Shown here in pieces: positions 8,350 to 33,087 of a DNA stretch of 34,487 nucleotides; within the stretch, counting starts at the first letter, position 1, and each line of letters opens with the position of its first letter. Position numbers and translations under genes: made by a program. This DNA comes from a virus. The stretch lies in IMG/VR virus record IMGVR_UViG_3300022188_000031, positions 1-34,487 of that record, one strand, 5' to 3'. Under the pieces are notes generated by a model. It did not search any database. It worked only from the letters and a program-made list of their open reading frames with translations, and was not told where the DNA came from.

Positions 8350-8372
8350 TTAATCACCATTGTATTGGTAAA

Positions 8373-11300
8373 TCATTCAATTGTAGCTTGTATTTCGATT
8401 GGTTCTGCTGGTGGGCTAAAGCTAGTGAAGTTAGCCCAGCACCAAATATAACAGGTTTGTGATGGGTCTATTATACCGCATATATCCTGATATGTTGTAG
8501 TCAAAGTCACCGCTCCATCATATGTGTTATCATCATCACAAAATATCGAAATGCTGCTTACAGTTGCATTTATCCTCAATTTTCCTGTGCCTGATGCTCC
8601 TCCATCGTTTGTAAGCTTGAATATAGCTTGTGCATCACTCTGATACTCTGGTGCAACATAACTATCTGTACAAGCCTGTCCCGGGCTTACTGGAGTATTT
8701 TCACCACAAATGAAAATTGGGTTATTATCAAAATCGTATGACCAGTCGGAACCATCATACACCATAAAGTTAGATTCCGGTGTTGGTGTAACTCTATCAT
8801 CTATTGCATCAACCATAATGTATTTAGACCTCATATATCCAGAGCTACCATACATCATTAAATTGGCTAGTACGTAAGTAACATTCTGATTAATATCATA
8901 ATTCATTATACCTGCCCATCTAAATGAGTGTGCATTATCATATGTATCTCTATCTGGTATTGTTCCAGTATAAATCTTCCAATCATAAGTGCTTAGGTTT
9001 GTATAATCCTTTGTAACCGCATAAAGTAGTCTATTATATTCATCAACTACGAGAAACATCCAATTGTCATCGTGTAGTTTTCTTACTATTATCCCAACTG
9101 CCTTAAATGGAGTGATGTTTAGAACAGTCCAATCAGATTGAGAACCCATCTGTTTGTAAACTAACTTTGCAGGCCCATTTGGCACTGAATTTGAATAGTC
9201 CCAATCAGTACATAGTATTAAAAATGTTGGATAATGTGCTAAACCTTTTGGCTCATCAAGTGCAATATGACCACCCATAAAATTACATTCTGTTATAGTG
9301 TCCATTTCAATAATGTCAGAATCATCTATTTCAAATGAATATACAGGAGTACCGAAATAAGTTTGATTCGAACTTCTCCCTCCATTATTATTTATGAAAT
9401 CTTCAATCGTCGCCCAGAAGAATCTAATCGGTTGTGGTCTTGAAGTAGGCCAACTGCCACCTTGACCATGAACAAATGCTGCCATGTGAATCCATTTATG
9501 ATTGACGCTGTCATAGAAGAAATCCCTCCTTCCGTATGCTTCACCGCTAAGATAGTCTCTATAATTCCAGGTTGTTCCATTATCTGTGCTCCAATGAACT
9601 GACATATCATAATAGTTAACTCTATTATCAGATATGGCAAGCATTGTTTTATTCAAAGCTTTAAGAATATGATATGCACCAGAAGAACCTGTATGTACAG
9701 TAATTGCTCTTGGCCATGTTGATGACAAGTTCCAATTACTTAGGTTAACCACAACAGTACTTCTGACAAATGACAATGGACAATCAGACGTATAGTGACC
9801 ACCAAATGTGAATATTGTATGGTTATAAGCATCAATATCAGCACTCAGAGAAATGTGATTTTCAAAATAATCAGAAGGACTGGTCCATGATTGGCATACT
9901 CTATAACCAGTGGATGCATCATTTGGGAAACAATATTTATCAGCTACCCACTCCAACTTTCCAGAACTTATGTTGAATGGCCTTATACATATATGCGTAA
10001 CATCAGTTCTCAGAGTCTGGTCGAAATAAAACACATATCCAATATCCGGGTCTGTTGCATCGGGAACTATTGTAAATAGACCCCATCCACCAGTTGCAGA
10101 ACCTGTTCCACCACCAAAATCAAACTCTGGAGACAATCCAGCATCTTCGACAGATATGTGGTGTGTATACATGTATGGGTCATTTACATCAACATCTGGA
10201 AATGGAACTTGAATGTCTATTGTATATATATCAGTCTCATTGCTTTGACCTTCCGCATCAGTACATTTTATTTTCCAGTAATTTTTCCCGTCTCTAACAA
10301 AATAGTGCTTAAAAGTCCAAGATGAAGTCGTTGATGTTTCATATACATGCCAATATCCGCTTTCATTTGTATACAATTCAATCAACGAAACTCCATTCGT
10401 TGCATCACAGTTGACAGAAAAGTTAACATACTTATCATTCGTCTCTACATATCCATCTGCTGGATAATCTACAGATATACTGATAATGAATGTATAGTTT
10501 ATATAGACCCATCGATTATCAGCCTTTCCTACATATCCAGCTATATCAGTACATGTCACATTGTATGTATAATTACCATTATCAAGATTGGTTACGTTAT
10601 ACCAAGCAGATACTGCTGTTCCAGACCCTACCTTATTCATTGTATAATCCGTCCCATTAAAGTGGAGAATACATGAATCTATATTTGATATTTTATCACT
10701 TGCAGTTACATTAACAAACGCCCATTTTCTATCAACTACTACATTTTCATCTGTAGGAGAAACATAGCTGACTGTTGGTGGTCCTAAATCAACATAATAA
10801 ACTAAGTTAGTGTTTGACGTGGAATCGTCACAATTCCCATTTGTATCACAACATGCTGTGTAAATGTGGTTTGTACCTTCACTTAGCCCAGAAATAGAAC
10901 ATGATATGCTAGTTGTTCCATCGCCAGTACAATCATTTGTCATTGAATCATAATCTGTATCGGTTGTTGACCACCTACAATCTCCTTCCTCGTCTAGCGT
11001 AAATGTTAATGTAAATGAGGTTGAAGTTAGGGTAGATTCATTTGCAGGGTTCCAATTCGATTGAGTAGGTGGGTTCGTGTCTCCACCAGATTGACTCTGT
11101 TCAGAGGATACTGAAATTGAAGGTTCATTTGTATCCCAAATGCCAGCTATGACCCAATCAACTGTCCAATTCATATAACTGTCATCTGTACTCGTAAATC
11201 TCGCGACGTAAATTTTCAATACTTTATTGGTTGAATCCCATGTAGCTTCACCAACATTATTGCTAGTCTCATCATCATGATATAATGTGAATCCAACATA

Positions 11301-12602
11301 TTGTGGGGTATCAATAACTAGGTCTGAGGAGAGCTCATCATAATACTTTTGACTGTAAGATGTATCCCACGTAATAGTTTTAGCGAGTGTATCTTTTTGA
11401 ACATAAATTGAGGAGATATACCAGTTGTTTATAGTAATATTTCCTAATTTATAGCTACTTTTATCAGCAGTTCCTGTTGTATCTTTAGCTACAATATAAG
11501 ATGCTGGCTTTTGATTTGTGTCATCAGCATTGAAATAATTACCAGGCTTGAACGTATATTGTGTATAATAATATTTAGAATCAGTATCTTCATCTACATC
11601 GAGTGCATATGAACAAGTATAGCGATGTTGACTTCCAGTAACACTATAATCAGTCATTTTTTGTTTTACTCTAAAAAACACATTATTATTTGAACAATAA
11701 CCAAGTGAATGGTAATAAAAGTGACTTGTGGTACTGAGTGGTGTCATAGCCCATCCTTTTGTTGAAGGGTCGACTTCAAAATCTGATGCAGCACAGAATG
11801 TTGAATATATATCACTTCCACTACCTACTGAAGGATTACCATAGTAAATTGAATAAATAACAGGACTGGAACTAGTTTTATCTGCTTTAAACCAAACAAC
11901 GGCATGTTCTGCGAAATGATTCCAATCTTCAATCCAAAATGGTAATTCTGTACCGCCAGAGTTACACGGTGCATTGACTATTCTAATGTCTGAACCATCA
12001 GAGTTTGCATGTGTAAAGTCAAAGTTACTCGATGTCAGTTCAACCATATAAGTAGCATTCAATAATGAAGATGTTAGAGTTACATTTCTACAATATTGCC
12101 AGTTTGAATTCCACCAGGGGTCTACTGGTCCAAATGACCATTTTACGTTTTGATATGGATTATATTTGTAACCAACAATTCTAATTTGATAATCTCTGCC
12201 TGCTCGGAAGACATAGGCAAATTTAGCAGTGTGGTTTTTATTACACCAATAACATCCACACCAAGCACCATTACATGGCTTGGTTAAATCAATTGTTCTC
12301 CAAGAGTCTCCCCACTTTCTCTGCAAAATAACTTCTTTCACATTAGGTTCAGTAGAAAATAACCATTCTTTGCTAGGATATATGAAAATATCTCTGTTTG
12401 TAGTAAAATTAATATAAGCATAACATGGGTCTTCAACAGTTCCATTACAAACCATATCTCCAGAATATCCGGTAATCGTGATTGCACCAATAGAAGAAAG
12501 ATAAAAAAATAAAGAAGCAACTAAAAGTGCAGAACCAAGACTAGTCAGAGCACCCTTTATTCTTTTTGCATATACTCTGGAATACTTGACAATCTTAATC
12601 AC
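8373..12602 (-). CDS. large secreted multidomain surface protein (DUF2341, Ig-like, Asp-box region)
   Basis: 1409 residues. Residues about 18-44 are a hydrophobic signal or anchor segment (LGSALLVASLFFYLSSIGAI). A Cys-rich part follows (CNGAWCGCYWCNKNH). Residues about 165-260 are a DUF2341 domain (NWQYCRNVTLTSS, DGSDIRIV, ELPFWIEDWN, IYSIYYGNPS), then a lectin/LamG-like beta region. Two or three Ig-like domains lie at about 505-800 (NPPTQSNWNPANESTLTSTS; PTVSYVSPTDENV), then a long beta-rich part with the Asp-box WSTDNGTTWNY. There are many N-x-S/T sequons and cysteines, as expected for an extracellular archaeal protein. Probable start is GTG at 12602, overlapping the upstream stop (GTGA) within GAGGTGATT. 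It may be a virion spike or a protein displayed on the infected cell; domain style looks host-derived. Confidence 0.7.
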   Translation of the reverse strand: MIKIVKYSRVYAKRIKGALTSLGSALLVASLFFYLSSIGAITITGYSGDMVCNGTVEDPCYAYINFTTNRDIFIYPSKEWLFSTEPNVKEVILQRKWGDSWRTIDLTKPCNGAWCGCYWCNKNHTAKFAYVFRAGRDYQIRIVGYKYNPYQNVKWSFGPVDPWWNSNWQYCRNVTLTSSLLNATYMVELTSSNFDFTHANSDGSDIRIVNAPCNSGGTELPFWIEDWNHFAEHAVVWFKADKTSSSPVIYSIYYGNPSVGSGSDIYSTFCAASDFEVDPSTKGWAMTPLSTTSHFYYHSLGYCSNNNVFFRVKQKMTDYSVTGSQHRYTCSYALDVDEDTDSKYYYTQYTFKPGNYFNADDTNQKPASYIVAKDTTGTADKSSYKLGNITINNWYISSIYVQKDTLAKTITWDTSYSQKYYDELSSDLVIDTPQYVGFTLYHDDETSNNVGEATWDSTNKVLKIYVARFTSTDDSYMNWTVDWVIAGIWDTNEPSISVSSEQSQSGGDTNPPTQSNWNPANESTLTSTSFTLTFTLDEEGDCRWSTTDTDYDSMTNDCTGDGTTSISCSISGLSEGTNHIYTACCDTNGNCDDSTSNTNLVYYVDLGPPTVSYVSPTDENVVVDRKWAFVNVTASDKISNIDSCILHFNGTDYTMNKVGSGTAVSAWYNVTNLDNGNYTYNVTCTDIAGYVGKADNRWVYINYTFIISISVDYPADGYVETNDKYVNFSVNCDATNGVSLIELYTNESGYWHVYETSTTSSWTFKHYFVRDGKNYWKIKCTDAEGQSNETDIYTIDIQVPFPDVDVNDPYMYTHHISVEDAGLSPEFDFGGGTGSATGGWGLFTIVPDATDPDIGYVFYFDQTLRTDVTHICIRPFNISSGKLEWVADKYCFPNDASTGYRVCQSWTSPSDYFENHISLSADIDAYNHTIFTFGGHYTSDCPLSFVRSTVVVNLSNWNLSSTWPRAITVHTGSSGAYHILKALNKTMLAISDNRVNYYDMSVHWSTDNGTTWNYRDYLSGEAYGRRDFFYDSVNHKWIHMAAFVHGQGGSWPTSRPQPIRFFWATIEDFINNNGGRSSNQTYFGTPVYSFEIDDSDIIEMDTITECNFMGGHIALDEPKGLAHYPTFLILCTDWDYSNSVPNGPAKLVYKQMGSQSDWTVLNITPFKAVGIIVRKLHDDNWMFLVVDEYNRLLYAVTKDYTNLSTYDWKIYTGTIPDRDTYDNAHSFRWAGIMNYDINQNVTYVLANLMMYGSSGYMRSKYIMVDAIDDRVTPTPESNFMVYDGSDWSYDFDNNPIFICGENTPVSPGQACTDSYVAPEYQSDAQAIFKLTNDGGASGTGKLRINATVSSISIFCDDDNTYDGAVTLTTTYQDICGIIDPSQTCYIWCWANFTSFSPPAEPIEIQATIE

Positions 12603-13051
12603 CTCTTCTTATGAAGTTTCCATTCTCCAGTATTTTCATTTATTAAAATGAATCTCTGAATATTTTTGTCTTCTGCTGTTGATTGCCAACCGATTCCATG
12701 ATATACAACTTCACCAGCTTTACCACCCATAACATAACTTACTTTATGTCGTCTAAAGTTAATCCATCTAAAGCCACTCTTTTTGCATTGATTTAATAGT
12801 TTTTTGTCCAATTCCAAATCTATTTTTTCATCATTGACGCAAATGTCTCCCGATTTTAAGTCAACTCTGAACTTTTTATTTTTGTATTCAGCAGAAATTT
12901 CATGAATGTCAGAATGTTTGAGTTTTAACAGAGCCCTGTTTAACTTTACTACATTATCATCTCCAATTTCTATATAATCTGTAAATTGTCGTAATTCTGA
13001 GATAGGTTCGACTATATCAACTGACTTAGATACCTTAGCCTTAACCCGCAT
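12599..13051 (-). CDS. hypothetical protein upstream of the large surface protein
   Basis: 150 residues, mixed alpha/beta, soluble, mildly basic. Visible stretches are LRQFTDYIEIGDDNVVKLNR, SGDICVNDEKIDLELDKKL and WINFRRHKVSYVMGGKAGEVV, ending in NENTGEWKLHKKR. I do not recognise the family. ATG at 13051 follows TGAGGTGGCAATACA. Its stop overlaps the start of the 1409-aa gene, so the two are probably translationally coupled. Confidence 0.6.
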   Translation of the reverse strand: MRVKAKVSKSVDIVEPISELRQFTDYIEIGDDNVVKLNRALLKLKHSDIHEISAEYKNKKFRVDLKSGDICVNDEKIDLELDKKLLNQCKKSGFRWINFRRHKVSYVMGGKAGEVVYHGIGWQSTAEDKNIQRFILINENTGEWKLHKKR

Positions 13052-14898: not shown

Positions 14899-16131
14899 TT
14901 ATGCGTCGCTCACGATAATTCTGACGATTGCATCAGAGTGTATTGGACTGACACCGTGACTCATTGTAAGTTTCATTCTTACTTGGTCTGCGTTTGGCCA
15001 ATCAAAGACCTTTATTTCAGGCTTGACTCCCCAGACCAATGCTCCTACTGGTCCTGCCTTAACAAGACCACATAGGTGTGCGTTAGTATCGAATGACTGG
15101 TTGCTTCCTTGTGTAACGATGCTATCTCCACTTGAGATGGATGGTACCTTTGTTGTGCTTACAACTTTAATTCCTAGATACCTACCAATTTCACCATTGA
15201 GTACTACTTCATTGCTACCGTATTCGGAAGCATTCACGAACTGAGAGTCCTTGAGTAATGCTTCCTCTTGCTCAGGTGCAATGAATAGCACGAATGGCTC
15301 CTTTGCAGTAGGTTCCCAAGTATTCTTAGTTACACTGGATTTAGTGAATGTGTTGGAATTCCAGTAATATCCGTGATTTGACATTAATAGTCTCTTTGCT
15401 TTTGCTATTAAGTCAGTTGTTAGAACATCTCCTGGGTCCAGACTGTTGTCTGCATCAGTGGCGTCACCTCCATATATCGTCTGGCAACCATTTGTTGTAT
15501 CACTCATTTCGGTTGCTCCTAAACTTGGAGATGAGCCGGCAGTACCTAGAATAGCGTCTCTGATAGCGGAGTCAATGGAATTCTCATATTTGTATGAGAG
15601 TTCCTCTCTGGCATATGTTACTAGGTTCAATGCATTTGTTCGTATTGCTTCATTTGTCAAAGCAATACCATAGTTGTATCGTGTTGGTGTTATCTGGACA
15701 CCATTTAATGTGTTTATCTGAGTCCATGAAATTTCGCTTCCAGCAGCATATTCAGCACTGGAAGATTCCCATGAACTGTCAGATAGATACTTCGTTCTGT
15801 ATGGTATAATGATGTCCTTGTGTCCTTCTGGTAGTGTGTATTGAGTTACTATTTGCAAGAATCTCATTCTTTCCTTTGCTGCATCAATTGCCTTCTTCAA
15901 GTACATTATTGGCTGTAGCATATATGCATTGCTTACAGCACCTCCTCTTGTTGATGTAGTGGATGTTACTGTTGAAGCGAGTTCAAAAACTCTCCATCCT
16001 AGAGCATTGGTCTTTGGCTCATAGGAAAGCTGGAGAGTTACGTCACCTGCATTGTTGTATAGTCTTTCTCTGAGATATTGTAACATTGATATGTCTACAT
16101 CTTCAGTTGTTCCGGCTGTTGGGTAATTCAT
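14899..16131 (-). CDS. nested in-frame product: major capsid protein alone (internal start)
   Basis: Same frame, starting at Met380 (MNYPTAGTTEDVDISMLQYL), 410 residues, a normal size for an HK97-fold major capsid protein. AAAGGTGAT (GGTGAT at 16138-16143) lies 6 nt before the ATG, the same spacing as the other internal site. This start coincides with the beginning of the capsid domain. Confidence 0.6.
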   Translation of the reverse strand: MNYPTAGTTEDVDISMLQYLRERLYNNAGDVTLQLSYEPKTNALGWRVFELASTVTSTTSTRGGAVSNAYMLQPIMYLKKAIDAAKERMRFLQIVTQYTLPEGHKDIIIPYRTKYLSDSSWESSSAEYAAGSEISWTQINTLNGVQITPTRYNYGIALTNEAIRTNALNLVTYAREELSYKYENSIDSAIRDAILGTAGSSPSLGATEMSDTTNGCQTIYGGDATDADNSLDPGDVLTTDLIAKAKRLLMSNHGYYWNSNTFTKSSVTKNTWEPTAKEPFVLFIAPEQEEALLKDSQFVNASEYGSNEVVLNGEIGRYLGIKVVSTTKVPSISSGDSIVTQGSNQSFDTNAHLCGLVKAGPVGALVWGVKPEIKVFDWPNADQVRMKLTMSHGVSPIHSDAIVRIIVSDA

Positions 16132-16764
16132 ATTTATATCACCTTTAACAGATAGTTTTACACCTTTATTTTCTTCACTTAATTTTTGTTCCATATCAGA
16201 ATTCTTCTTTACTTTTTTCCATTCTTTTGCAGCGGCTTTGACTAACTCAGAGCCCTTGAGCTCTGGATGTTTCTTAGCAAACTCCTTGACGAACTTTGTA
16301 AACTCTGAATTTAATAATTCCTTCTTACCCAAGTACTCGAGCAAATTCCAAACATCATGGTAAGAAATTGCCCTAAGTTCTTGGGTAGTTTCCTTGCTTC
16401 TGCTGTCTACAACGACAACTTCTGGCTTAGTCTCGGCCTGCTCTTCCTCAACAGTCTCAGACTGAGCAGGCGTTTCTTCTGGCTTTGTCTCTGGTTCAGG
16501 TTCTGGCTTTGTTTCTTCTTCATTCTTTTTAGTTTCTGGATATGCATACTTATCAGGGTATGGATATTTCTCTTCTTTCTTTTTCTTTTCCTTGTTTTTT
16601 TCTGTTGTAGGAGGGTATGGATACTCCTCCTTCTTTTTCTTTTCTTTTAATTCTTCATTTTCTGGTTTAGCTTCTGGCTTTGTTTCTTCTTTAGGTTCCT
16701 CGTGAGCAACGGGAGCGTTTTGGCTGGTCTCTTCGTTCTTGAAGTCTATATTTTCTTCAGCCAT
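14899..16764 (-). CDS. nested in-frame product: scaffold-capsid (internal start)
   Basis: Same frame as the polyprotein, starting at Met169 (MAEENIDFKNEE). GGTGAG at 16771-16776 stands 6 nt before the ATG, matching the best ribosome binding sites in this cluster. It falls exactly at the end of the protease region, so the product would be scaffold plus capsid without protease. Comparable to lambda C/Nu3 nested starts. Confidence 0.6.
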   Translation of the reverse strand: MAEENIDFKNEETSQNAPVAHEEPKEETKPEAKPENEELKEKKKKEEYPYPPTTEKNKEKKKKEEKYPYPDKYAYPETKKNEEETKPEPEPETKPEETPAQSETVEEEQAETKPEVVVVDSRSKETTQELRAISYHDVWNLLEYLGKKELLNSEFTKFVKEFAKKHPELKGSELVKAAAKEWKKVKKNSDMEQKLSEENKGVKLSVKGDINMNYPTAGTTEDVDISMLQYLRERLYNNAGDVTLQLSYEPKTNALGWRVFELASTVTSTTSTRGGAVSNAYMLQPIMYLKKAIDAAKERMRFLQIVTQYTLPEGHKDIIIPYRTKYLSDSSWESSSAEYAAGSEISWTQINTLNGVQITPTRYNYGIALTNEAIRTNALNLVTYAREELSYKYENSIDSAIRDAILGTAGSSPSLGATEMSDTTNGCQTIYGGDATDADNSLDPGDVLTTDLIAKAKRLLMSNHGYYWNSNTFTKSSVTKNTWEPTAKEPFVLFIAPEQEEALLKDSQFVNASEYGSNEVVLNGEIGRYLGIKVVSTTKVPSISSGDSIVTQGSNQSFDTNAHLCGLVKAGPVGALVWGVKPEIKVFDWPNADQVRMKLTMSHGVSPIHSDAIVRIIVSDA

Positions 16765-17268
16765 AATTCGCTCACCGTCTTGATTTAATACGAAGAGACT
16801 ATTAGGGATTAAATCGATACCGTCTCCGGTATCATTAGCTTTATTCAAAAATGTACGTTTACAAGCTGGTTCTACAACCAGTGAAAAGTTTTTAAATATA
16901 AAGTCTTTTACACTACCAGACTCTCCTCTACCTACAATCTTGGGGCTAATACCAAATTTAGCACCCATCAGTATAGCCTTTTGAGCATTTTCATCAGCAA
17001 TAATCAAATCAGCAATAATAGTACCATCATCTAAATATTTAGGATTTTCAATAAATCCAATCCAAGATTTAGCACTGGTATCATCATGGTCATAAAACAA
17101 ATATCTTATGCTAGGATTCTCCCAGTCAGTATTCTCAAATGCCTCTTTAAGTTCCTGTTTATCATAGTACCATTGATTCCACACTCCTGTACTCATTACT
17201 GGATGCTGATGAATCCTAAGAATCTTAAATCCGTTCAGTTTCTCCCAACTGATTTTACTCTTAGGCAT
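14899..17268 (-). CDS. prohead protease-scaffold-major capsid polyprotein
   Basis: 789 residues. Residues 1-165 look like an HK97 gp4/herpes-type prohead protease: RYLFYDHDD (candidate His61), FIENPKYLDDGTIIADLIIA, AKFGISPKIVG (candidate Ser108) and FSLVVEPACKRTF. Residues about 170-300 are a Lys/Glu/Pro-rich scaffold-like linker with YPYP motifs. Residues about 300-360 are helical (FVKEFAKKHPELKGSELVKA, HMG/YABBY-like pattern). From residue 380 it is an HK97-fold capsid protein (YLKKAIDAAKERMRFLQIV, GIALTNEAIRTNALN, EPFVLFIAPEQEEALLKD, SHGVSPIHSDAIVRIIV). The first ATG is leaderless behind a TATA box. Two internal in-frame ATGs have strong ribosome binding sites, so shorter products are likely. 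Confidence 0.85.
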   Translation of the reverse strand: MPKSKISWEKLNGFKILRIHQHPVMSTGVWNQWYYDKQELKEAFENTDWENPSIRYLFYDHDDTSAKSWIGFIENPKYLDDGTIIADLIIADENAQKAILMGAKFGISPKIVGRGESGSVKDFIFKNFSLVVEPACKRTFLNKANDTGDGIDLIPNSLFVLNQDGERIMAEENIDFKNEETSQNAPVAHEEPKEETKPEAKPENEELKEKKKKEEYPYPPTTEKNKEKKKKEEKYPYPDKYAYPETKKNEEETKPEPEPETKPEETPAQSETVEEEQAETKPEVVVVDSRSKETTQELRAISYHDVWNLLEYLGKKELLNSEFTKFVKEFAKKHPELKGSELVKAAAKEWKKVKKNSDMEQKLSEENKGVKLSVKGDINMNYPTAGTTEDVDISMLQYLRERLYNNAGDVTLQLSYEPKTNALGWRVFELASTVTSTTSTRGGAVSNAYMLQPIMYLKKAIDAAKERMRFLQIVTQYTLPEGHKDIIIPYRTKYLSDSSWESSSAEYAAGSEISWTQINTLNGVQITPTRYNYGIALTNEAIRTNALNLVTYAREELSYKYENSIDSAIRDAILGTAGSSPSLGATEMSDTTNGCQTIYGGDATDADNSLDPGDVLTTDLIAKAKRLLMSNHGYYWNSNTFTKSSVTKNTWEPTAKEPFVLFIAPEQEEALLKDSQFVNASEYGSNEVVLNGEIGRYLGIKVVSTTKVPSISSGDSIVTQGSNQSFDTNAHLCGLVKAGPVGALVWGVKPEIKVFDWPNADQVRMKLTMSHGVSPIHSDAIVRIIVSDA

Positions 17269-17318: not shown

Positions 17319-20300
17319 CTAAATAAGTCCTAATTGCCTCTGATATAAATATACAGTATTAGGACTAAGTGAAAGCTCATCTGCAATTGTTTTTCTGGAT
17401 ATTCCTGCTTTGGTCATTAAGTATATTCGAGCAAGTTGTTGAGAACTTAGCTTGGGTGGTTTACCTACAGATTTGACTTTATCCCATAACATTATCCATT
17501 TGTTCTTTTCAATATGGGCAATGTGGTAAGAATATTTGCCAGTCACATTGATTAATTTTTTAGGTGGCTTAACTAGAACAGGGGCACCTTCTTTTTTAGC
17601 TTGCTCTATTGGTTTCAAATTAATAATTCCTTTATCAGACTTTAATTCGAAATGAATCAAATGGTCATTAACTTGATGTATGGTATAAATCCCTCTAGCT
17701 ATAATTGTAAATACTCCAGGATAATGAGTACCAGCTGTTCCGATTTTATGAGTCACGCCTTCAAAGAATAACCAATCGATAGGTTCTGGGACTTTTATTG
17801 TACCTCTTACATGTTTGTCAGCCCCATAATTAGTTTCTTCTATTGTTGATGGTTCAAATAGAGTTATACCTTCTAATATTCCTTCCAATTCATCTTTTTC
17901 AAACAGTGTTTCTGCTTTACTATAAGTCAAGACTTTTCCATAATCTTTAGCTGGAATGAAAAATCTAACATCCCTATGAGCCTTTTTACCTATGGTATGA
18001 ACTTGCATTACAAATGGCATCCAGAGCTTATTATCCATTATCTTTTTGAAATTAGCTTGCATTCTGAGCGGGAAATCTCTGACATAAATGTCATGCCCTT
18101 CTGTTTTGGGTTCTGAAGCTAATTTCTTGACAGCAAATCCAATCGATTGAACAATGTTTTCTAAATCATCAACTGTAGATGTAGTTTTCTTTTCTGTAAC
18201 ATGGGCTACTCTTGGTTTGTGAATTGAATAGTGTATACCACTAGAAGTTTCATGTCTCCAAATTTCTTCAATTAAAATTGAAATAATCTTACCTGCATCA
18301 ATTTTTTCATCGGTATTGAAAGTACGACCCAAAACCAAAACATTCTTTCCATTGAGAGTGACTACTTTCTTTGGATTTATCATGTTCATATCTTTTTTTC
18401 TTAGATAGATTCCTACGGTATAATTGTATAATCCTCTTTCTTTAGGATTCCTCTGTAAAACTACTACATCTATATCAACCAAATGTCTATACTTTATCCA
18501 AGCATGTGAAGTTTCATCAAATGAATATGGTGCATCTAGTCTCTTAATCACTGCACCCTCAGAACCTTGTAAATCGGCCGCCCATTTAATTGCCTTCTCA
18601 ACTTCTTCTTTACCTTTAGCAAACTTTCTTGGAATTTTAATTACTCTGTTGTTAAATTTCAGCTTGTGTAAATATTTGATTCTTTCTTTCAATGGTAAAT
18701 GAAGAATAGGCTTATTGTAGTAAATTATATCCCAAACAAAAAGTTTGACATTTTTATCATCAACTTTCTTACCAGATTCTATTGCTCCAATAAATTTCAT
18801 TAGTCCTCTGCGACCAGCAACTTTGTTTCCTTCAAATAAAATTAATTCGCCATCAATTATGAAATCTTCTTTGCTTAATTTTCTAATAGCCTCAATTAAA
18901 GTTGGGAAAGCATCTGTAATGTCTTTTCTCTGCTCTGAAAATATTTTTACTTTATCACCAGATTTGTGAATGCAAGCATGAAATCCATTTGCTTTATATT
19001 CGATGGAATATTCGACATTATCTTCAATTTCTTCCATTACATCTGGAATTTTGTAATATGCAGAACCATAAGGTTTTTGAGGCAGATAAGGCGTAAACAT
19101 TTTTAAATTCACTGCCATTTCAATTACTTTTGGTGGTAGTACTCTGACTAATTTCAAGTCATAAATTGGAATGTAATCATCATGGGGACCAGAAGATTCA
19201 CCAAAAATGAAATGTAATTTATTCGCTAATTCATCTGGCAACATTTTCATTAATCTAACTCTAATTGCACGTTCAAGAAAATCATTTCTAATAGCTGTAT
19301 GACATTTAGGACAGATGATTGGTTCTACTCTAACTAATAAATCAATATCATTAGGATAATGCCCATCTTTGGATTTAACTGTAGAACCAACCAAGCTAAT
19401 TACATCTTTGATGACTGTGAAATCATCAAATTCTTTCAGAAATTTTTCGGGATTGTTTAAATCATATCTTTTGTTTATTATTTCCTTCTTTCTACTTACT
19501 ATTTTGTAAAGTTCTAAAGCATAGTTTTTATAATGTTCTGGATGAAACTGGATTCCTCTTTTTTTCAATTCATCATAGATTAATTTGGCAAGATTTATTA
19601 TTGTCTCTTCAGAATATTTGAATTTTCCTTTAGTTTTCAAAGTTGTGTACCAAGCTAAGACGATTCTCCAGTCATCTTTAAGAACTCTGGTTGGTAACTT
19701 GCTTGGGTTATAAGTTTTAACATTTTCAATTAACTCGACATTAGCAAACTCAATCTCTTCTACTACAGTTTCCAAACCTTCTTTAGGCTTCCACCTTATT
19801 GGATTAATGAATCTATCAATCCAAGTAAAACTATATTCCCAAAATTCCTTTTGGTGTTTCCACCAATTCTTAATTTCATCTTCGGAAATCAAATGTAGAT
19901 TTTTTCTTTCTTCAAATTGTTTCTTAGTAATTTTGTTTGGTGGATGTAATCTGATAACTCCATAAACATAATGTTTATCAACTAAGTACAATGCCTTATC
20001 AACTGAATCTATTTTTTTGTTCAAAACTATTAACTGTTGTTTATCCTGCCAAACCCATTTGGCATGAGGTTCGGGAAGATATAATCCTTCTCGATATTTA
20101 TCTTCTAAATCTAAAGTCATTCCATCATAAGCAAGTAAAACTTTAGTACTGCAGTCTCTTCTAATCTCTTCCCAGTATTTCAATATTTCCTTTTCTGCTA
20201 CTTCAAACTTAGGATAAGTGTGACCAGCTTGAATTAAGATTGCTACTTTAGGTTCATACTTTTTTATTAATCCAAGTGCAGTTTCAACTGATTGATGTCC

Positions 20301-20858
20301 TTTAATTTGCTTGCCAAAGTACATTGCTGCATCTAATATCCAGAGTTTAGCATTATAGAAGTATTTATCACTTTCTTTTGGTATTTCACCTAAATCCTCA
20401 CTATAAATAATATCATTAAAACGATAAGCTACAGTTGGAAATCCGGGCTGAATAGAATGCTCAATTCTAATTGGTAAAAACTTTATCCCATCGACTTCAA
20501 ATTCTTCATAAGGCTTGATGAAATGAGGTTTTAATAAATCTATATTCTTATAATTTTCTTTTATTCTAGCCCACGTTTGTTTTTCGCAATAAAAATCCAG
20601 TGTCTGAATATCTTGGTCTGCTAACCAGTGTATTAAATTAGGAATCCCACCAATTACATCATGATGTGCATGAGTACATAAAACAAAATCAATTTTTTTG
20701 ATATTATTAGCCTTTATTTGCTCAGTGAATTGTGGCGTTACATCTATAATGAATTTCGAGTTCTTTATCTCAAAATAACAAGAACTATTCGTTCTTCTAT
20801 CCTTACCTTCACCCCTCACGGGTTCAGTTGGGCCTGAGCCAAGAATAATCAGTTTCAT
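17319..20858 (-). CDS. multidomain end-processing protein: MBL, Pol-beta NTase, ATP ligase, LigD-PE-like, HTH
   Basis: About 1179 residues from the ATG at 20858; an in-frame ATG at 20876 adds six, and the numbers here use that longer form. Residues 7-250: metallo-beta-lactamase fold (THAHHDVIGG at 68-77, H140, D161, H219). 263-360: a beta domain resembling PUA/ASCH (GLYLPEPHAKWVWQDKQQLI). 485-590: Pol-beta-type nucleotidyltransferase (GS 497-498, D510-I-D512, D573). 620-890: ATP-dependent ligase core plus OB fold (K628-A-N-G, IIDGE 673-677, SEGAVIKR 772-779, WIKYR 793-797). 955-1100: LigD 3'-phosphoesterase-like (H960, H967-R-D969-V-R971, FFEG). 1143-1185: helix-turn-helix. It would process and seal nucleic-acid ends. 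Unusual place, between portal and capsid genes. Confidence 0.8.
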   Translation of the reverse strand: MKLIILGSGPTEPVRGEGKDRRTNSSCYFEIKNSKFIIDVTPQFTEQIKANNIKKIDFVLCTHAHHDVIGGIPNLIHWLADQDIQTLDFYCEKQTWARIKENYKNIDLLKPHFIKPYEEFEVDGIKFLPIRIEHSIQPGFPTVAYRFNDIIYSEDLGEIPKESDKYFYNAKLWILDAAMYFGKQIKGHQSVETALGLIKKYEPKVAILIQAGHTYPKFEVAEKEILKYWEEIRRDCSTKVLLAYDGMTLDLEDKYREGLYLPEPHAKWVWQDKQQLIVLNKKIDSVDKALYLVDKHYVYGVIRLHPPNKITKKQFEERKNLHLISEDEIKNWWKHQKEFWEYSFTWIDRFINPIRWKPKEGLETVVEEIEFANVELIENVKTYNPSKLPTRVLKDDWRIVLAWYTTLKTKGKFKYSEETIINLAKLIYDELKKRGIQFHPEHYKNYALELYKIVSRKKEIINKRYDLNNPEKFLKEFDDFTVIKDVISLVGSTVKSKDGHYPNDIDLLVRVEPIICPKCHTAIRNDFLERAIRVRLMKMLPDELANKLHFIFGESSGPHDDYIPIYDLKLVRVLPPKVIEMAVNLKMFTPYLPQKPYGSAYYKIPDVMEEIEDNVEYSIEYKANGFHACIHKSGDKVKIFSEQRKDITDAFPTLIEAIRKLSKEDFIIDGELILFEGNKVAGRRGLMKFIGAIESGKKVDDKNVKLFVWDIIYYNKPILHLPLKERIKYLHKLKFNNRVIKIPRKFAKGKEEVEKAIKWAADLQGSEGAVIKRLDAPYSFDETSHAWIKYRHLVDIDVVVLQRNPKERGLYNYTVGIYLRKKDMNMINPKKVVTLNGKNVLVLGRTFNTDEKIDAGKIISILIEEIWRHETSSGIHYSIHKPRVAHVTEKKTTSTVDDLENIVQSIGFAVKKLASEPKTEGHDIYVRDFPLRMQANFKKIMDNKLWMPFVMQVHTIGKKAHRDVRFFIPAKDYGKVLTYSKAETLFEKDELEGILEGITLFEPSTIEETNYGADKHVRGTIKVPEPIDWLFFEGVTHKIGTAGTHYPGVFTIIARGIYTIHQVNDHLIHFELKSDKGIINLKPIEQAKKEGAPVLVKPPKKLINVTGKYSYHIAHIEKNKWIMLWDKVKSVGKPPKLSSQQLARIYLMTKAGISRKTIADELSLSPNTVYLYQRQLGLI

Positions 20859-21027
20859 AAACCATCTTCCTCGCATTAAATTCCAATCGATTTAATACCT
20901 TTTTGACCAAATCAATTGGAATGTCCAACGCTTCCGAAATTAAATCTGCATTCAATCCATGTATATTTTGTACGTGCAAATAAAACAAAAATTCCACTAT
21001 TTGTTTTTCAGCTTCCTTTTCATTCAC
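20824..21027 (-). CDS. small winged-helix-like protein
   Basis: About 67 residues from a GTG at 21027 preceded by GGTGATTCAT; an alternative GTG at 21036 overlaps the portal stop as GTGA. The sequence EKQIVEFLFYLHVQNIHGLN, then ISEALDIPIDLVKKVLNRLE, then MVYETDYSWL fits a compact winged helix (helices plus a beta wing). It sits between portal and the ligase fusion and overlaps the latter by 35 nt. Could be a small DNA-binding partner of the fusion or a regulator. Confidence 0.55.
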   Translation of the reverse strand: MNEKEAEKQIVEFLFYLHVQNIHGLNADLISEALDIPIDLVKKVLNRLEFNARKMVYETDYSWLRPN

Positions 21028-21032
21028 ATGAA

Positions 21033-22337
21033 TCACCCTTTCTTGTTTTTAGGCTTTTCAGGCAAGCCTTCAGCCTCCCTAATCCATCTTTCTATTTTTT
21101 CATCTGACTGCAATAATCCTACCTTTGCATATTGAGTCAGTCTAGTGGCTTTTGAATCTAACTCTTCCAATGCAACTTCACCCCAAACTATTTTTGGTAC
21201 ACTAATTTTCTTGTTATGATTTTTGTTATAAAGTTCAGCTATTCTGTAAAAGATTTTGTTTTCTATAGTTGAAACAGTTCTTCTGATTATGTCTTTGAGA
21301 GTTAATTTGGCAATGTATTCTTGTCTAGCTAATGTAGCTCGGTTAGTAGCTTCACCAGAACCAGTTGCAAAGGCTTTAGGCATGCCCATTCCAGTTATAA
21401 TTTGTTCAATGAAGTAATCTAGAAATGAACGTAGCCTTTCTGGGTGTTTTGATTCTAGAATTTGTAATTCATTGTAATAAGCTGTGGCAAAAGCAGTTCT
21501 AGAATTCACATTTTCTAATTCCTTAATTGCATTTGCAATTTGTTCTTCAGTTGGTTCATGCATTTCATCTCCAATTTTAGCAAATAAGAGAGGATTTCCA
21601 ACTCTGTATGCTGAATTGGTATATCCTTCTTCGGCAGCTTTTAATTCTAAAATGGTTTTATAAACAGGTTCAATCAAACCGATAGCTTGCAGACCACTAC
21701 CTATAGTGTAAAGTTTAAATACTACTACTCTTTCTGGTGGGAAGAAAATTTGATTTCCACCGACTTTTACTCTGTCTGGTACTTTGATTCTTTTATCTTC
21801 TGGAATCATTATTGCACCAGGTAAAGTTTGTACATAACCTAAAGGATTTCCGTATTCATCAACTGCAATTCTAAATGAACTGTCTCTGGCATAGTCAAAA
21901 TATTTTGGGTCTATTACATCCAAATCAACAATTTCATCTTTCTCTTTTGCATAAATCAATTCGACTGGTGCAACTCCATAAATGCATTGAAATTGAAATA
22001 TTTTCGTGAGTAGAAACTCCCAGTCATTTTCCCCTCCTCTTTTTCCAATTGTGTTTAAAAATTCCGTAAAGAATTCTACACTTTCTTGGTCCCCTTCTAG
22101 TCTATACCCAGAACTCATTATTATCTGCACTATTTTGTTAATCGTGTTGAAAACAACTGGACATGAATAATATGCTTGCTCCAATAATGTTGGACTGACT
22201 TTCTCAGGCATAAAATCAGAATACTTTACTGACAATGGGTTTGGTTTCAATCCACTTATCATTGGCTTGGCGAGAGTGAACTCTCTCATTCCAATTCTCC
22301 TAGAAATAGCTTGCCTGAGTTTAGTGACTATACTCAT
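21033..22337 (-). CDS. portal protein
   Basis: 434 residues. The portal is the dodecameric ring at the capsid vertex through which DNA is packaged. Family features: N-terminal basic segment, EQAYYSCPVVFNTINKIVQI, WEFLLTKIFQFQCIYGVAPV, DLDVIDPKYFDYARD, PPERVVVFKLYTIGSGLQAI (P-x-x-v-x-h pattern), IEPVYKTILELKAAEEGY, and IEQIITGMGMPKAFATGSGE followed by NRATLARQEYIAKLT. Length is normal. It is next to terminase, as in most tailed viruses. Confidence 0.9.
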   Translation of the reverse strand: MSIVTKLRQAISRRIGMREFTLAKPMISGLKPNPLSVKYSDFMPEKVSPTLLEQAYYSCPVVFNTINKIVQIIMSSGYRLEGDQESVEFFTEFLNTIGKRGGENDWEFLLTKIFQFQCIYGVAPVELIYAKEKDEIVDLDVIDPKYFDYARDSSFRIAVDEYGNPLGYVQTLPGAIMIPEDKRIKVPDRVKVGGNQIFFPPERVVVFKLYTIGSGLQAIGLIEPVYKTILELKAAEEGYTNSAYRVGNPLLFAKIGDEMHEPTEEQIANAIKELENVNSRTAFATAYYNELQILESKHPERLRSFLDYFIEQIITGMGMPKAFATGSGEATNRATLARQEYIAKLTLKDIIRRTVSTIENKIFYRIAELYNKNHNKKISVPKIVWGEVALEELDSKATRLTQYAKVGLLQSDEKIERWIREAEGLPEKPKNKKG

Positions 22338-22360: not shown

Positions 22361-23767
22361 TTAAAAAGTTTTAGGCTTAAGTTCGAATGTGAAAAAAGCC
22401 TTATTCATCGGTCTTTTTACAGGCTTAATACCACTTAAAGCAAGTGCTAAACTCATAACCATATCATCATGGGCTGCAGTAGTCTTATAAGTAGTAGCTC
22501 CAGATGGAGTTTTTGTTACTATAAAAGAAGTAAGTTCCTTATAAAGTTTGTCAGTAAGTGCTAAACAACTGCCTCCAGCTTTTCTTGGAATGACCAATTT
22601 ACCATCTTCCAAAATCTTTCTCAAATTCATTAGGTAATTGTTCCTGCTTGCAAAATCAAACTTACAACCTACCGCCCTAATCTGTTTCGACCTCAACTCT
22701 TGTAAGATTGTAACTCCAAAAGTCGATTCGTCTAAATAAATTGCCTCTGGTCTATACTGATTATAAAGAGACTCGAGTCTTCTTATTTGAGCAGAGATTG
22801 GCATTCCTTTATATCTTTCTATTTTGCGAATGTAATACTTGTCACCTTCAGTTTCTACTACAGTGAAGACGGTATAATCTACATCCTTTCCAGTTCCAAC
22901 AGCAAAGTCAGCACCAATGTAAATTCTACCACCCTGAGATTCACTCTTGAAATCAAGTTTCTCGTCAAAAGCATTAAGCACGAGATTTGGTGGGAAGAAT
23001 GCATCTTCCATTGCAACGACATCACACATGTATTCTTGTCTGAATCTAATCGAACCCATTGTCTGTTTAATTTCCTCCAATCTTTTTTCAGAATAGAGCT
23101 CAGGAAAGATTGGCTTTCCTTCTTTGTCAAAAGCACTATAAACTTTACCAACAAAGACAGGATTCTTTAACAATTTATTTGGGAGGTCTATTGCAGAGAC
23201 TGGAGTTGAAATTACAGCCAGTTTACCGCCCTTAGCCGTTACCCTGGTTATGACCCATCGTTCGAATATGGAATGGTCCTTATACTGAGCAGCTTCATCA
23301 CAAATGACATAATCAACGTGAAATGAACGTATGTTTTCATTGTACGGCTTGCAGAATATCTTGCACTTAGTTGACGTGTTTATCTCAGTTTTTGTCCAAG
23401 TTAGTTTATCCTTTTGTTCTGGTTCTAAAATCTTCAACAGTTCATTCGTTGCAATTGCAGTTTTTATTCTTTCTAGAATTTTCACGGATTGGTCAATTAC
23501 ATTTGAAACTATGAGTATTTGTTTTCTTCTATTGTAAAATGCAAGCCAAAGAGGAATTGCAACTCCAAATATTGCAGTCTTACCGTGACCAGTTGGTGCA
23601 ACTATGACTACTCTATCATGACTAAGAAACATGTCAATCCATTCTCTGTGAAAAGGTTTCAGAGTAAGCCCCAAAACCCTTTCAATCCAGAAGGCCGGAT
23701 TGATTCTCCCATAAACGATGAACTCTTTTTCATCCATACCTTGAAGAATTTCCTCCATCGTACGCAT
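22361..23767 (-). CDS. terminase large subunit
   Basis: 468 residues. The DNA-packaging motor: ATPase plus headful/end nuclease. Walker A APTGHGKT at 57-64, Walker B VICDEA at 154-159, coupling region VISTP near 185. The nuclease domain is RNase H-like: GADFAVGTGKDVDYTV (D287), YLDES (D346), AAHDDMVMSLALAL (D434/D435). N-terminal 'FWIERVLGLTLKPFHREWID' is typical. ATG at 23767 has no ribosome binding site but lies about 26 nt from a TATA box shared with the divergent gene, so it is probably leaderless. No small terminase gene is visible. Confidence 0.93.
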   Translation of the reverse strand: MRTMEEILQGMDEKEFIVYGRINPAFWIERVLGLTLKPFHREWIDMFLSHDRVVIVAPTGHGKTAIFGVAIPLWLAFYNRRKQILIVSNVIDQSVKILERIKTAIATNELLKILEPEQKDKLTWTKTEINTSTKCKIFCKPYNENIRSFHVDYVICDEAAQYKDHSIFERWVITRVTAKGGKLAVISTPVSAIDLPNKLLKNPVFVGKVYSAFDKEGKPIFPELYSEKRLEEIKQTMGSIRFRQEYMCDVVAMEDAFFPPNLVLNAFDEKLDFKSESQGGRIYIGADFAVGTGKDVDYTVFTVVETEGDKYYIRKIERYKGMPISAQIRRLESLYNQYRPEAIYLDESTFGVTILQELRSKQIRAVGCKFDFASRNNYLMNLRKILEDGKLVIPRKAGGSCLALTDKLYKELTSFIVTKTPSGATTYKTTAAHDDMVMSLALALSGIKPVKRPMNKAFFTFELKPKTF

Positions 23768-23817: not shown

Positions 23818-24708
23818 ATGCCTCGAGATTTGTTAAAAACAATCCGGGAGAATCCTAAAACACTTTCAGAACTTGCTAAGGAATTCAAATGTTCTAAAAA
23901 CCAAATGAAAAAACAGTTAACTGGGTTGAGAAAGAGAGGAGTACAGGTTGAAAAGATTAGAGACAAAAACGGAGAAACTCACTATTATGTTCCAAGCAGA
24001 CTTCGTTCCAGTGTAAGAGTAGTAAAGACTGATTATTTTGGTTTAATTGGAGACACGCACTTATGTTCAAAATATGCAGAAGAAGAAGCATTGCAAATGT
24101 ACTATGATGAAATTGCAGATAGAGGAATAAAGGAAGTCTTTCATGCAGGAGATTTAATTGATGGGATGAACGTCTATCAAGGACAAGTAAATGATTTGAA
24201 AGTAATAGGACTAACAGACCAGATTGAATATGCGATTAAAAACTATCCAAAAAAGAAGGGAGTGAAGACTCGAGTAATTGCTGGAAACCATGACTTGAAA
24301 GAATTCAAAAAAAGCGGGATAGACCCAGTCAAACAAATCGCACAAGAAAGAAAAGACATAGACTATTTGGGCCAGTATTATGGAAGAGTAAAGCTAAAAG
24401 GAGACGTCATATTGGAATTATCTCACGTATCGGGAGGAGCTCCCTATTCTCTATCTTACAGGATGCAAACTTACCTGCGAAACAGACCGCCAAGCAAATA
24501 TCCCGACATTCTAGCAATGGGCCACCTGCATACCAGTTTCTTTGCAGATTACCAGGATGTACTGACATATAATGTCGGTAGCTTCATGGGAGATACTGAT
24601 TTTCTCAGAAGGAAAGGAATCATCAGCACCATCGGCGGATGGATAGTTGAATTGAAGGTTAAAGACGGAAGAGTAGTAAAAGCCATAAACGAATGGGTGA
24701 AATTTTAA
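23818..24708 (+). CDS. wHTH-metallophosphoesterase
   Basis: 296 residues. Residues 1-60: winged helix-turn-helix (TLSELAKEFKCSKNQMKKQL, then a beta wing GETHYYVP). Residues 70-270: calcineurin-like phosphoesterase with GDTH (78-81), GDLIDG (111-116), GNHD (156-159), H203 and GHLH (235-238), a complete two-metal site. Such enzymes act as nucleases or phosphodiesterases; fusion to a wHTH suggests DNA targeting or self-regulation. ATG at 23818 is leaderless behind the shared TATA box. It leads the rightward operon, opposite terminase. Substrate unknown. Confidence 0.8.
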   Translation: MPRDLLKTIRENPKTLSELAKEFKCSKNQMKKQLTGLRKRGVQVEKIRDKNGETHYYVPSRLRSSVRVVKTDYFGLIGDTHLCSKYAEEEALQMYYDEIADRGIKEVFHAGDLIDGMNVYQGQVNDLKVIGLTDQIEYAIKNYPKKKGVKTRVIAGNHDLKEFKKSGIDPVKQIAQERKDIDYLGQYYGRVKLKGDVILELSHVSGGAPYSLSYRMQTYLRNRPPSKYPDILAMGHLHTSFFADYQDVLTYNVGSFMGDTDFLRRKGIISTIGGWIVELKVKDGRVVKAINEWVKF

Positions 24709-30960: not shown

Positions 30961-32070
30961 ATGGTTAAACTAACCGCTCAATATAGGAAATTATTGGAAG
31001 ATTGGCTCAAAAGACATAACATAGAACCCGATACAATAGACATTCAGGCGGAGTGGGATAGTCAATTATCATATAGGGAGAATAAGAAACTTCTCGCAGA
31101 GAAATATAACATAGTAGATTTGGAACTTGAAAAGGACGAATATGACGCTTATGAAAATGAACATTTGAGAGAAGAGGCAGACAGAACGGAAAAACAATTA
31201 GCAAAAGCTATAATGAAACTCAAAGGAAATGAGAACGAAATCTTAAATACGGCATTCTCTACGGCAAAAGAACTGGTTAAAACCTTACTGAAAAGCGAGA
31301 ATATTCACGGGCTTATACTGAAAGGCGAGGCTGGAATTGGGAAGTCTCATTTAGTTATGAAGACATTATCAGAAGAAGGCTTAATGCTTGGGAAAGATTA
31401 TAGCATATTAACAGGATATGCTACTCCGCTTGAACTATATTTGTATCTATACGAAAACAGGAACAAAAAAGTATTGGTCTTCGATGACATTATGAAACTA
31501 TTCGAGAACAACATAAATAAGGGAATACTATTATCGGCATTATTCAACCCGACAGGTGACAGGATAGTAAATTACTATTCATCCACTGAAAAACTAACTG
31601 CTCCAAAGACATTTGAGTTTAAACCTAAAATAATCTGGTGTCTAAATGAAATACCACAGGAATTAGAACCGATTAAGTCAAGATGTTTTTACTATGAAAT
31701 TAAATTCGATTATCCTACCAAAATCAAAATCCTATACGCAATAGCACAGGTGAAGAAAATACCATTTGATATTATTGACTTTATAAAGGAAAATACCAAC
31801 GAGGCTTATCAAATAGACTTCAGACTACCTCTCAAAATATATGAAATCTATAAAGCAAATCCTAACAATTGGAAAAATCTATCCTTACAATTACTCCAAC
31901 CAAAGCACGAAGACTTACTAATAGTGAAGGAATTGATGGAAAAATATGCGACTACAAAAGAACAGATTATACAATTTACAAACATTACAGGAAAATCGAG
32001 GGCTACATTCTTCCGATATAAGAGAGAACTGATGGAAAGTCTCAAAGTCTCATCTCATACCTATGGATGA
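30961..32070 (+). CDS. AAA+ ATPase with C-terminal HTH (replication initiator/helicase loader candidate)
   Basis: 369 residues. N-terminal ~100 residues are charged helices (KLLEDWLKRHNIEPDTIDIQ). AAA+ core: Walker A GEAGIGKS (122-129), Walker B VLVFDD (171-176), sensor-1-like IIWCLNE (225-231), arginine-containing PIKSRCFYYEIKF (237-249). The C-terminus (TTKEQIIQFTNITGKSRATF, FRYKREL) is a helix-turn-helix with a recognition helix that could bind an origin. This layout is typical of DnaA/Cdc6/DnaC-like loaders in small archaeal viruses. ATG follows GGTGGGTTA. No helicase or polymerase is visible in the window, so it probably recruits host enzymes. Confidence 0.7.
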   Translation: MVKLTAQYRKLLEDWLKRHNIEPDTIDIQAEWDSQLSYRENKKLLAEKYNIVDLELEKDEYDAYENEHLREEADRTEKQLAKAIMKLKGNENEILNTAFSTAKELVKTLLKSENIHGLILKGEAGIGKSHLVMKTLSEEGLMLGKDYSILTGYATPLELYLYLYENRNKKVLVFDDIMKLFENNINKGILLSALFNPTGDRIVNYYSSTEKLTAPKTFEFKPKIIWCLNEIPQELEPIKSRCFYYEIKFDYPTKIKILYAIAQVKKIPFDIIDFIKENTNEAYQIDFRLPLKIYEIYKANPNNWKNLSLQLLQPKHEDLLIVKELMEKYATTKEQIIQFTNITGKSRATFFRYKRELMESLKVSSHTYG

Positions 32071-32074
32071 TACT

Positions 32075-32773
32075 ATGAAATGGTTAATTGGAATAGATGA
32101 AACGGCACGATGTCCAGCATTAATGCCATTATATGTCTTGGGAATGGCTACTACTGAACCAGAACTCAAAAAGATGAAGCAGAAACTCACATTAAAAGAC
32201 AGCAAATTAACCACCCCCAAACAGAGAGAAAAGGCATTTAAGTATGTAATTCTTCGCTCAAGAAAGTTTAAATTTGAACTGATTAAAATTGCTCCTGAAA
32301 CAATTGATATGGCTGTAAGCGGTAAGCTTCCATTAAAAATGAATCTAAATGATTTGGAAGCAGTTGCTATGATGAATATAATTGATAGATTGGTTAAGAG
32401 AATAAAAAAAGAAGACAAAAATGCTACATTTTTTGTTTATATAAACAATTTTGAACGGGAAAGGAAGCAGTTTATAGACAGGGCCAAAAGTCTTGGATAT
32501 ACTCCAAACGGCTACAAATTAACTCTAACTCACAAATACTATGACATCATCTCTCTGGCGAGTATGGTTTGTAAGCACATAGAGGATACTGAAACCAAAT
32601 CGTGGAAATTTATTTATAATTTTGATTTTGGCTCTAAAAATCCAAACGATAAACGAACTCAAGAATTTGTGAGAAAATTCCCTCACTCTTGGATTATTAG
32701 AAGAAAGTGGGGAACAATCATACCCCGAATTTTAAAAGAGGTAGAAAATAATGGAACTCAAAATCAAGAATAA
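32075..32773 (+). CDS. degenerate RNase HII-like protein
   Basis: About 232 residues from the ATG at 32075 (GGATGAT upstream); an ATG at 32063 adds four, and numbers here use that one. Archaeal RNase HII landmarks are present in order: GIDETARCPALMPLYVLGMA (canonical GIDEaGRGPviGP), LKDSKLTTPKQRE, LTHKYYDIISLASMVCK (canonical HKAD...vSAASilAK) and FGSKNPNDKRTQEF ... RRKWGTI. D12 and E13 remain. The third acidic position falls in YINNFE, apparently Asn, the fourth has YY(D), and the GRG ribose-sensing motif is ARC. Activity is therefore doubtful or altered. It follows the AAA+ gene; primer removal would be the standard role. Confidence 0.7.
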   Translation: MKWLIGIDETARCPALMPLYVLGMATTEPELKKMKQKLTLKDSKLTTPKQREKAFKYVILRSRKFKFELIKIAPETIDMAVSGKLPLKMNLNDLEAVAMMNIIDRLVKRIKKEDKNATFFVYINNFERERKQFIDRAKSLGYTPNGYKLTLTHKYYDIISLASMVCKHIEDTETKSWKFIYNFDFGSKNPNDKRTQEFVRKFPHSWIIRRKWGTIIPRILKEVENNGTQNQE

Positions 32774-33083
32774 GGTCTTTTACATAGGTAATAAGAGAAT
32801 AGGAGTATTGGGTAGGGATAGAGTTTTTAGAATGTATAGAACCAAAAAGAAGCACTATTTCAGAATTTATAATGGATGGGCTCTTAATAAGCAATTGCTT
32901 TATGACCTGCTTCACAAATTTGATATTAGAATAATAGAAATCATAACAACCGATACAAATGAAATCTACAGGACAGATATTCCAACTTGGTTGAAATTCG
33001 GAAAGGAATACAAAAATCCAAAAGATATTAATGACATTCAATTAATTTTAAATCGTCTTTTGTTTGATGTTTGGCAAAGGTGA
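32751..33083 (+). CDS. hypothetical protein (110 aa)
   Basis: Starts MELKIKNKVFYIGNKRIGVL, then FRMYRTKKKHYFRIYNGWAL and NKQLLYDLLHKFDIRIIEII. Overlaps the RNase HII-like gene by 23 nt. N-terminal half resembles the 85-aa protein at 26430 (FYIGxKR), C-terminal half is alpha/beta. Function unknown. Confidence 0.5.
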   Translation: MELKIKNKVFYIGNKRIGVLGRDRVFRMYRTKKKHYFRIYNGWALNKQLLYDLLHKFDIRIIEIITTDTNEIYRTDIPTWLKFGKEYKNPKDINDIQLILNRLLFDVWQR

Positions 33084-33087
33084 TTGG

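Follow-up and report, generated by a model that had tools for sequence, protein, structure and literature searches.

Why does a virus keep, among the genes that build its head, a gene for one long protein in which a DNA ligase is joined to several nucleic acid end-processing domains? The question is raised by the IMG/VR virus record IMGVR_UViG_3300022188_000031, analysed here over its positions 1 to 34,487 (the window), in which positions 17319-20858 (-) form a single uninterrupted frame of 1179 aa in an open reading frame check. Based on its domains, motif conservation, family coherence, synteny, and the protease fusions of its relatives, we propose that the gene product is a head-associated DNA end-processing and sealing enzyme acting on the virus's own DNA, most likely at entry, a reading to which we give an even chance. 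The genes around it follow one another on one strand throughout:

22361..23767 (-), terminase large subunit (PHROG 38, E 5e-49)
21033..22337 (-), portal protein of the Portal_Mu type (Pfam E 3.5e-13; PHROG 9232, E 3e-19)
20824..21036 (-), 70-aa ORF between the portal and enzyme genes, overlapping the start of the latter (weak winged-helix similarity, RPA_C E 0.0065)
17319..20858 (-), gene of the 1179-aa multidomain enzyme (complete frame, stop codon at 17319-17321; in-frame ATG possible upstream at 20876)
14899..17268 (-), major capsid protein (MCP) with a long N-terminal extension (Phage_capsid_4, E 8e-7)

The first in-frame ATG, at 20876, offers an alternative gene of 17319-20876 (-); the start at 20858 (MKLIILGSGP) agrees with that of the closest relative (L009). 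The N-terminal extension of the MCP is probably a prohead-protease-like part, with a weak protease match, and its counterpart in the related contigs L007 and L009 is a separate gene. In the window, this MCP-protease gene and the enzyme gene are separate and not fused, and no end repeats were found. Divergent from the head operon, 23818-24708 (+) encodes a calcineurin-like phosphoesterase (SbcD/DNA repair exonuclease type) that has a helix-turn-helix (HTH) at its N-terminus. An RNase HII gene (Pfam E 4e-14), unusual for a small virus, lies at 32063-32773 (+) and is possibly linked to ribonucleotides at DNA ends.

In the 1179-aa numbering, the enzyme is divided as follows:

20109..20858 (-), aa 1-250, metallo-beta-lactamase (MBL) domain (Pfam Lactamase_B_2 E 9e-19; solved MBL hydrolases E 6e-12)
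19743..20087 (-), aa 258-372, ASCH (PUA-like) domain (structure model with pLDDT ~90; Foldseek to ASCH structures)
19515..19718 (-), aa 381-448, helical domain (iterated HMM; similar to Pyr_excise, the T4 endonuclease V family)
19116..19439 (-), aa 474-581, nucleotidyltransferase (NTase) of the Pol-beta superfamily (GS motif, D504, D506, D567; weak Pfam match, profile-profile comparison)
18468..19049 (-), aa 604-797, adenylation domain of an ATP-dependent DNA ligase (Pfam DNA_ligase_A_M E 1e-28; motif I K622)
18207..18434 (-), aa 809-884, predicted OB fold of the ligase (family HMM, present in 17 of 17 long members)
17631..18029 (-), aa 944-1076, LigD-type 3'-phosphoesterase-like (PE) domain (family profile; H954, H961, D963, R965)
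17322..17477 (-), aa 1128-1179, C-terminal HTH (HTH_7 E 3e-7; model pLDDT >90; transposase/resolvase HTH matches)

An earlier note on this DNA had read in the frame an MBL hydrolase, a PUA/ASCH-like domain, a Pol-beta-type NTase, a ligase with OB fold, a LigD-PE-like domain, and an HTH; every part of this reading is upheld, and the helical domain at aa 381-448 was overlooked. Pfam placed Lactamase_B_2, DNA_ligase_A_M, and HTH_7 above the cut-off and matched NTP_transf_2 weakly. Aligned to 3py5, the MBL metal motif HxHxDH reads HAHHDV, so that the last His is gone, as it is in all three MBL members (HGHSDA in L006/L011 and HAHEDC in L009). For the ASCH part of the model, the best Foldseek matches are ASCH structures (E 8e-6 to 6e-4, probability 1.00). 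The helical domain resembles a pyrimidine-dimer glycosylase and is sometimes doubled in relatives; Pfam Pyr_excise matched 5 of 16 family copies (best E 1.6e-5), and by eye the domain appears to lack the catalytic Glu of T4 endonuclease V. The solved structures closest to the ligase domain are DNA ligases, and K622 aligns with the invariant lysine in a motif I that reads KANG rather than KxDG. Elsewhere in the window, 33064-33429 (+) encodes a 121-aa protein whose HTH matches that at the C-terminus of the enzyme (iterated HMM E 1e-20) and which may bind the same DNA sites.

Among the enzyme domains, the NTase is the one with the weakest evidence. Its single-sequence Pfam match in the window reaches only E 0.0026 (NTP_transf_2), and because Pfam found NTP_transf_2 in the NTase segment of just one of 14 members, profile-profile comparison with shuffled controls was used. 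Here the NTase family matched archaeal MNT proteins at 70%, compared with at most 0.5% for 20 shuffled profiles, and a fold search gave weak matches to MntA and ANT (E 0.4-0.85). The window NTase has the pattern G[GS]...DxD and a third acidic residue (GS, D504/D506, D567), the last of which is absent in L014, L016, L008, and L020. A CPKCH insertion within the domain (residues ~515-521, nt ~19300), missing from aligned relatives, is a possible zinc knuckle. For the PE domain, the window sequence alone gave no significant LigD-PE match and a family profile (15 members) was required, which matches the solved LigD-PE structures 3p4h (E 6e-7), 3p43 (E 3e-6), and 3n9b (E 0.003). Profile searches thus recovered both the PE and the NTase similarity that the earlier note had proposed. 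A fold search of the PE-HTH model returned HTH matches only, the PE part being modelled poorly (mean pLDDT 57), so that the PE was identified from profiles instead; L018 has a second PE copy that scores above the LigD_N cut-off. Glu and Trp stand at the positions of PaeLigD His84 and Tyr88, which we take to have active-site roles, and the family mostly has E/Q and W there. With a metal ligand gone from the MBL, two LigD residues changed in the PE, and the third Asp of the NTase absent in some relatives, some of these domains may be structural.

The family of this enzyme was built by iteration from ANMV-1 through viral and genome contigs, which led to ~20 distinct loci (L numbers), and the NTase-ligase-OB-PE core is common to ~20 uncultured contigs and ANMV-1. 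An IMG/VR scan with the window protein alone found no relative, one with the ANMV-1 protein alone confirmed none, and a first genome scan with close relatives as queries gave no match. Among 50,697 phage records, the core was found in ANMV-1 only. The closest relative of the window enzyme, L009 (57% identity, 1612 aa), has the same order of MBL, ASCH, helical domain, NTase, ligase, OB, PE, and HTH, with a D12 adenine methylase between the MBL and the ASCH domain and a second insertion after the latter, and L006/L011 resembles the N-terminal half of the window enzyme at 45%. The frame is therefore very unlikely to be an assembly chimera, a concern raised in the earlier note, since L009 lies on an independent contig, and we reject this explanation.

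Iterated HMMs detect the NTase, ligase, OB, and PE domains in practically every long member, and the ASCH domain in eight members; most members also have the helical domain, frequently in two copies. The N-terminal modules vary and include an MBL (window, L006), a D12 methylase (L007, L018), both together (L009), a 2H phosphoesterase (L013; on a separate gene in L010), and, by eye, a TGT/DpdA-like part (L010), and there is no N-terminal module in ANMV-1. The nuclease-like fold that had been seen as an addition to a LigD-like set is thus present in the window as the MBL and is not constant, other members carrying a methylase, a 2H domain, or nothing in its place. In L010, QueE-like and FolE-like genes lie between the NTase gene and a TGT/DpdA-like-ligase-PE-XkdF fusion (4827-12712), possibly forming a system, linked with the head module, that modifies DNA with 7-deazaguanine.

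The catalytic motifs are well kept. The Asp-x-Asp of the NTase is DID in all aligned rows but one (DVD in L009) and its G is also (nearly) invariant, the ligase motif lysine is kept in 17 of 17 family rows with a (nearly) invariant SEG and motif V lysine, and in the PE, H..H.D is (nearly) invariant and R is present in nearly all members. At the sequence level, this conservation reflects selection on catalysis within the family. In L011, the MBL-NTase half stops early (627 aa) and a ligase N-terminal fragment with the motif I NLNG lies at the contig end (14135-14920 (+)); this enzyme would be a split version, perhaps inactive, with the motif lysine apparently lost.

The core profile, run over 550 archaeal genomes, matched replicative ligases across the ligase/OB part only, and the few matches extending into the NTase or PE were mostly on long viral-type frames. 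In a ligase tree that left out LigD, the viral ligases, including that of L017, group together on a single branch, separate from archaeal replicative ligases and two phage ligases (100/98). Phage SPbeta LigB and the StopSmel and Bradyrhizobium phage ligases were rejected as relatives, having the ligase domain alone in common, and a search for plasmid relatives through the L018 PE gave no match.

Would the same architecture recur near portal genes in other viruses, as the earlier note suggested checking? Of 14 assessable contigs, 12 have a portal or MuF gene upstream of the enzyme gene, either adjacent to it or separated from it by a single small gene (window, L002, L007, L009, L010, L011, L013, L014, L016, L018, L020, and L023/L026), the exceptions being L008 and L019. 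In L007 and L009, the portal and enzyme genes overlap by 4 bp, and head protease and capsid genes usually lie downstream of the enzyme gene. This neighbourhood is kept across deep branches and differing portal families. Moreover, the ligase-PE chain of L010, L012, and L013 ends in an XkdF prohead protease (E 1e-27 or better), and in L018 a PE is fused to a different head protease; as L018 sits on another tree branch, protease fusion arose at least twice. The synteny and these fusions strengthen the idea, proposed earlier, that the head module includes a LigD-like machine whose nucleotidyltransferase is of another kind. The psageK4 "putative methyltransferase", considered as a precedent for an enzyme-protease fusion, was rejected because it is a small, misleadingly named XkdF-like gene. 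In ANMV-1 (L002), KP703175 5868-9368 encodes a 1166-aa cysteine-rich protein after the ligase, with an apparent MuF-like C-terminus.

The head context and the protease fusions suggest that the protein, like polyvalent proteins, resides within the prohead. We infer the enzyme activity, DNA as its substrate, the packaging, and the timing, and propose the following course of events. The enzyme would be made together with the portal, protease, and capsid proteins and would enter the prohead via a tie to the portal/protease assembly. The PE domain would trim 3' ends clean and the Pol-beta-type NTase would add one or more nucleotides. The ATP-dependent ligase, together with its OB fold, would close nicks or ligate the linear genome end to end. 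Help with binding or inspecting DNA could come from the ASCH, HTH, and helical domains, and the N-terminal module, which varies (an MBL in the window, a methylase or 2H phosphoesterase in other members), could add counter-defence or end-cleaning. Most likely, the enzyme would go in with the genome and, on entry, turn it into a continuous, circular molecule. There are precedents for multidomain proteins that are injected from heads (PMC5512222, PMC9503650), and mycobacteriophages use non-homologous end joining (NHEJ) for genome circularisation (Pitcher 2006, as cited in PMC7719229). A search of 14 viral records, several to most of which are possibly fragments, detected no Ku, and its absence from them argues against canonical NHEJ. 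More tentatively, the family may represent an undescribed and widespread viral end-joining machine, a single polypeptide that the prohead protease would mature and that would reach the cell together with the genome, and in which a Pol-beta-type NTase, DNA ligase, and LigD-type PE make the incoming genome whole and circular without Ku.

The main rival to a head-associated enzyme acting at entry is nick sealing during packaging. The enzyme would then act in the producing cell, trimming, filling, and sealing nicks and gaps of replicated or concatemeric DNA near the portal and so keeping the motor from stalling, and would not need to enter the virion. Its gene adjoins those of the terminase and portal, and nick sealing at the packaging stage has a precedent in T4 (PMC10893049). 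However, the prohead protease fusions in three or four members point to the inside of the prohead and not to the motor outside it, and the methylase and 2H modules would better suit early infection. On balance, we regard this rival as unlikely.

The protein might instead serve RNA or tRNA repair and counter-defence, with the MBL, ASCH, and 2H domains cleaning RNA ends, the NTase adding nucleotides like RlaP, and the ligase sealing RNA broken by host defence. RNA is often the substrate of ASCH, 2H, and RNase Z-type MBL folds, and LigD-PE acts near 3' ribonucleotides, which would fit such a role. The same can be said of the Pol-beta NTases that accompany RNA ligases in jumbo phages (PMC7824862). 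Yet the match of the ligase to DNA ligases is much stronger than that to RNA ligases (E 1e-28, compared with a best RNA_ligase family match of 4e-5 in one relative), the D12 DNA methylase, HTH, and Pyr_excise-like domains are of types directed at DNA and support a DNA substrate, and Pfam gave no match to an RNA-ligase-associated NTase family. Since the ligase and most of its partner domains are of DNA type, RNA repair is improbable.

Many phages have an ATP-dependent ligase, and the gene could encode an ordinary replication or repair ligase that sits in the head cluster by chance; a neighbourhood conserved over deep branches and different portal families, direct protease fusions, and the separate tree position of the viral ligases make this quite improbable. 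Finally, a head-internal protein in which the enzyme folds are mostly relics with a structural or scaffolding role would agree with the lost MBL His, KANG in the window branch, the changed PE residues, and NLNG in L011, but is very improbable given that the NTase Asp-x-Asp, the ligase lysine, and the PE H..H.D are kept across alignable members.

Relatives of the enzyme occur in contigs binned as Methanophagales (L026), Methanosarcinales (L023, L025), Aenigmatarchaeota (L021, on the same contig as L005/L007), and Elusimicrobia (L024). The host of the window virus is probably archaeal, although the binning of virus contigs is unreliable. Archaea are mostly without Ku-based NHEJ (PMC7719229), and these viruses, some from vent or seep samples, have a self-contained set of predicted end-processing and ligation activities. 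Its place beside the portal gene or in fusion with a head protease in many uncultured viruses suggests a genome-repair kit packed in heads. If true, this would offer a testable explanation of the way in which tailed archaeal viruses make their linear genomes continuous. A packaged enzyme would be a head-delivered agent of DNA ligation and end processing that connects the maturation of the prohead with the establishment of the genome. It would also show that nucleotide adder, end cleaner, and ligase can be united in one machine by means other than LigD-Ku.

In the open-access literature, with most subscription journals outside the scope of the search, we found no description of this enzyme family, and its nearest functional counterpart is bacterial LigD, the NHEJ ligase with the order POL-PE-LIG. 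Both have an ATP-dependent DNA ligase, an OB fold, a homologous PE, and a nucleotide adder on a single chain, and in both the ligase is without the N-terminal DNA-binding domain of replicative ligases. In contrast to the AEP primase type of LigD, the viral NTase probably belongs to the Pol-beta superfamily, and neither Pfam nor NCBIfam matched an AEP-type polymerase domain in the window enzyme. The viral order is NTase-LIG-PE, two PE active-site positions are changed, no Ku was found, and the viral enzyme has additional ASCH, helical, HTH, and variable N-terminal modules and lies in a viral head cluster. Judged by its residues and domains, the window enzyme would work like LigD but is not LigD, having no AEP polymerase, no Ku, and altered PE residues. 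In the mycobacteriophage system, a viral Ku is reportedly paired with the host LigD; there, too, end joining circularises the viral genome, whereas a window-type virus itself encodes a ligase, PE, and NTase, with no Ku detected.

The ANMV-1 "ATP-dependent DNA ligase" (AJP62006, KP703175), whose annotation names the ligase only, has the same NTase-ligase-PE core immediately downstream of the portal gene, but is shorter (866 aa), is without the MBL, ASCH, and C-terminal HTH, and is accompanied by a different portal family. Lastly, polyvalent proteins (Iyer et al. 2017, PMC5512222) are likewise large multidomain proteins in or near the head module that swap modules (2H, NTase, and others), and are predicted to be injected with DNA. 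DNA ligases go unmentioned in the main text of that study, according to which archaea have few polyvalent proteins, nearly all of those >1,000 aa being bacterial (PMC5512222). The viral enzyme family differs from them in its fixed NTase-ligase-PE core and its protease fusions. By architecture and genomic place, it nevertheless fits the polyvalent-protein style, with packaging predicted, and would, if this is true, extend polyvalent proteins to a fixed DNA-joining core.
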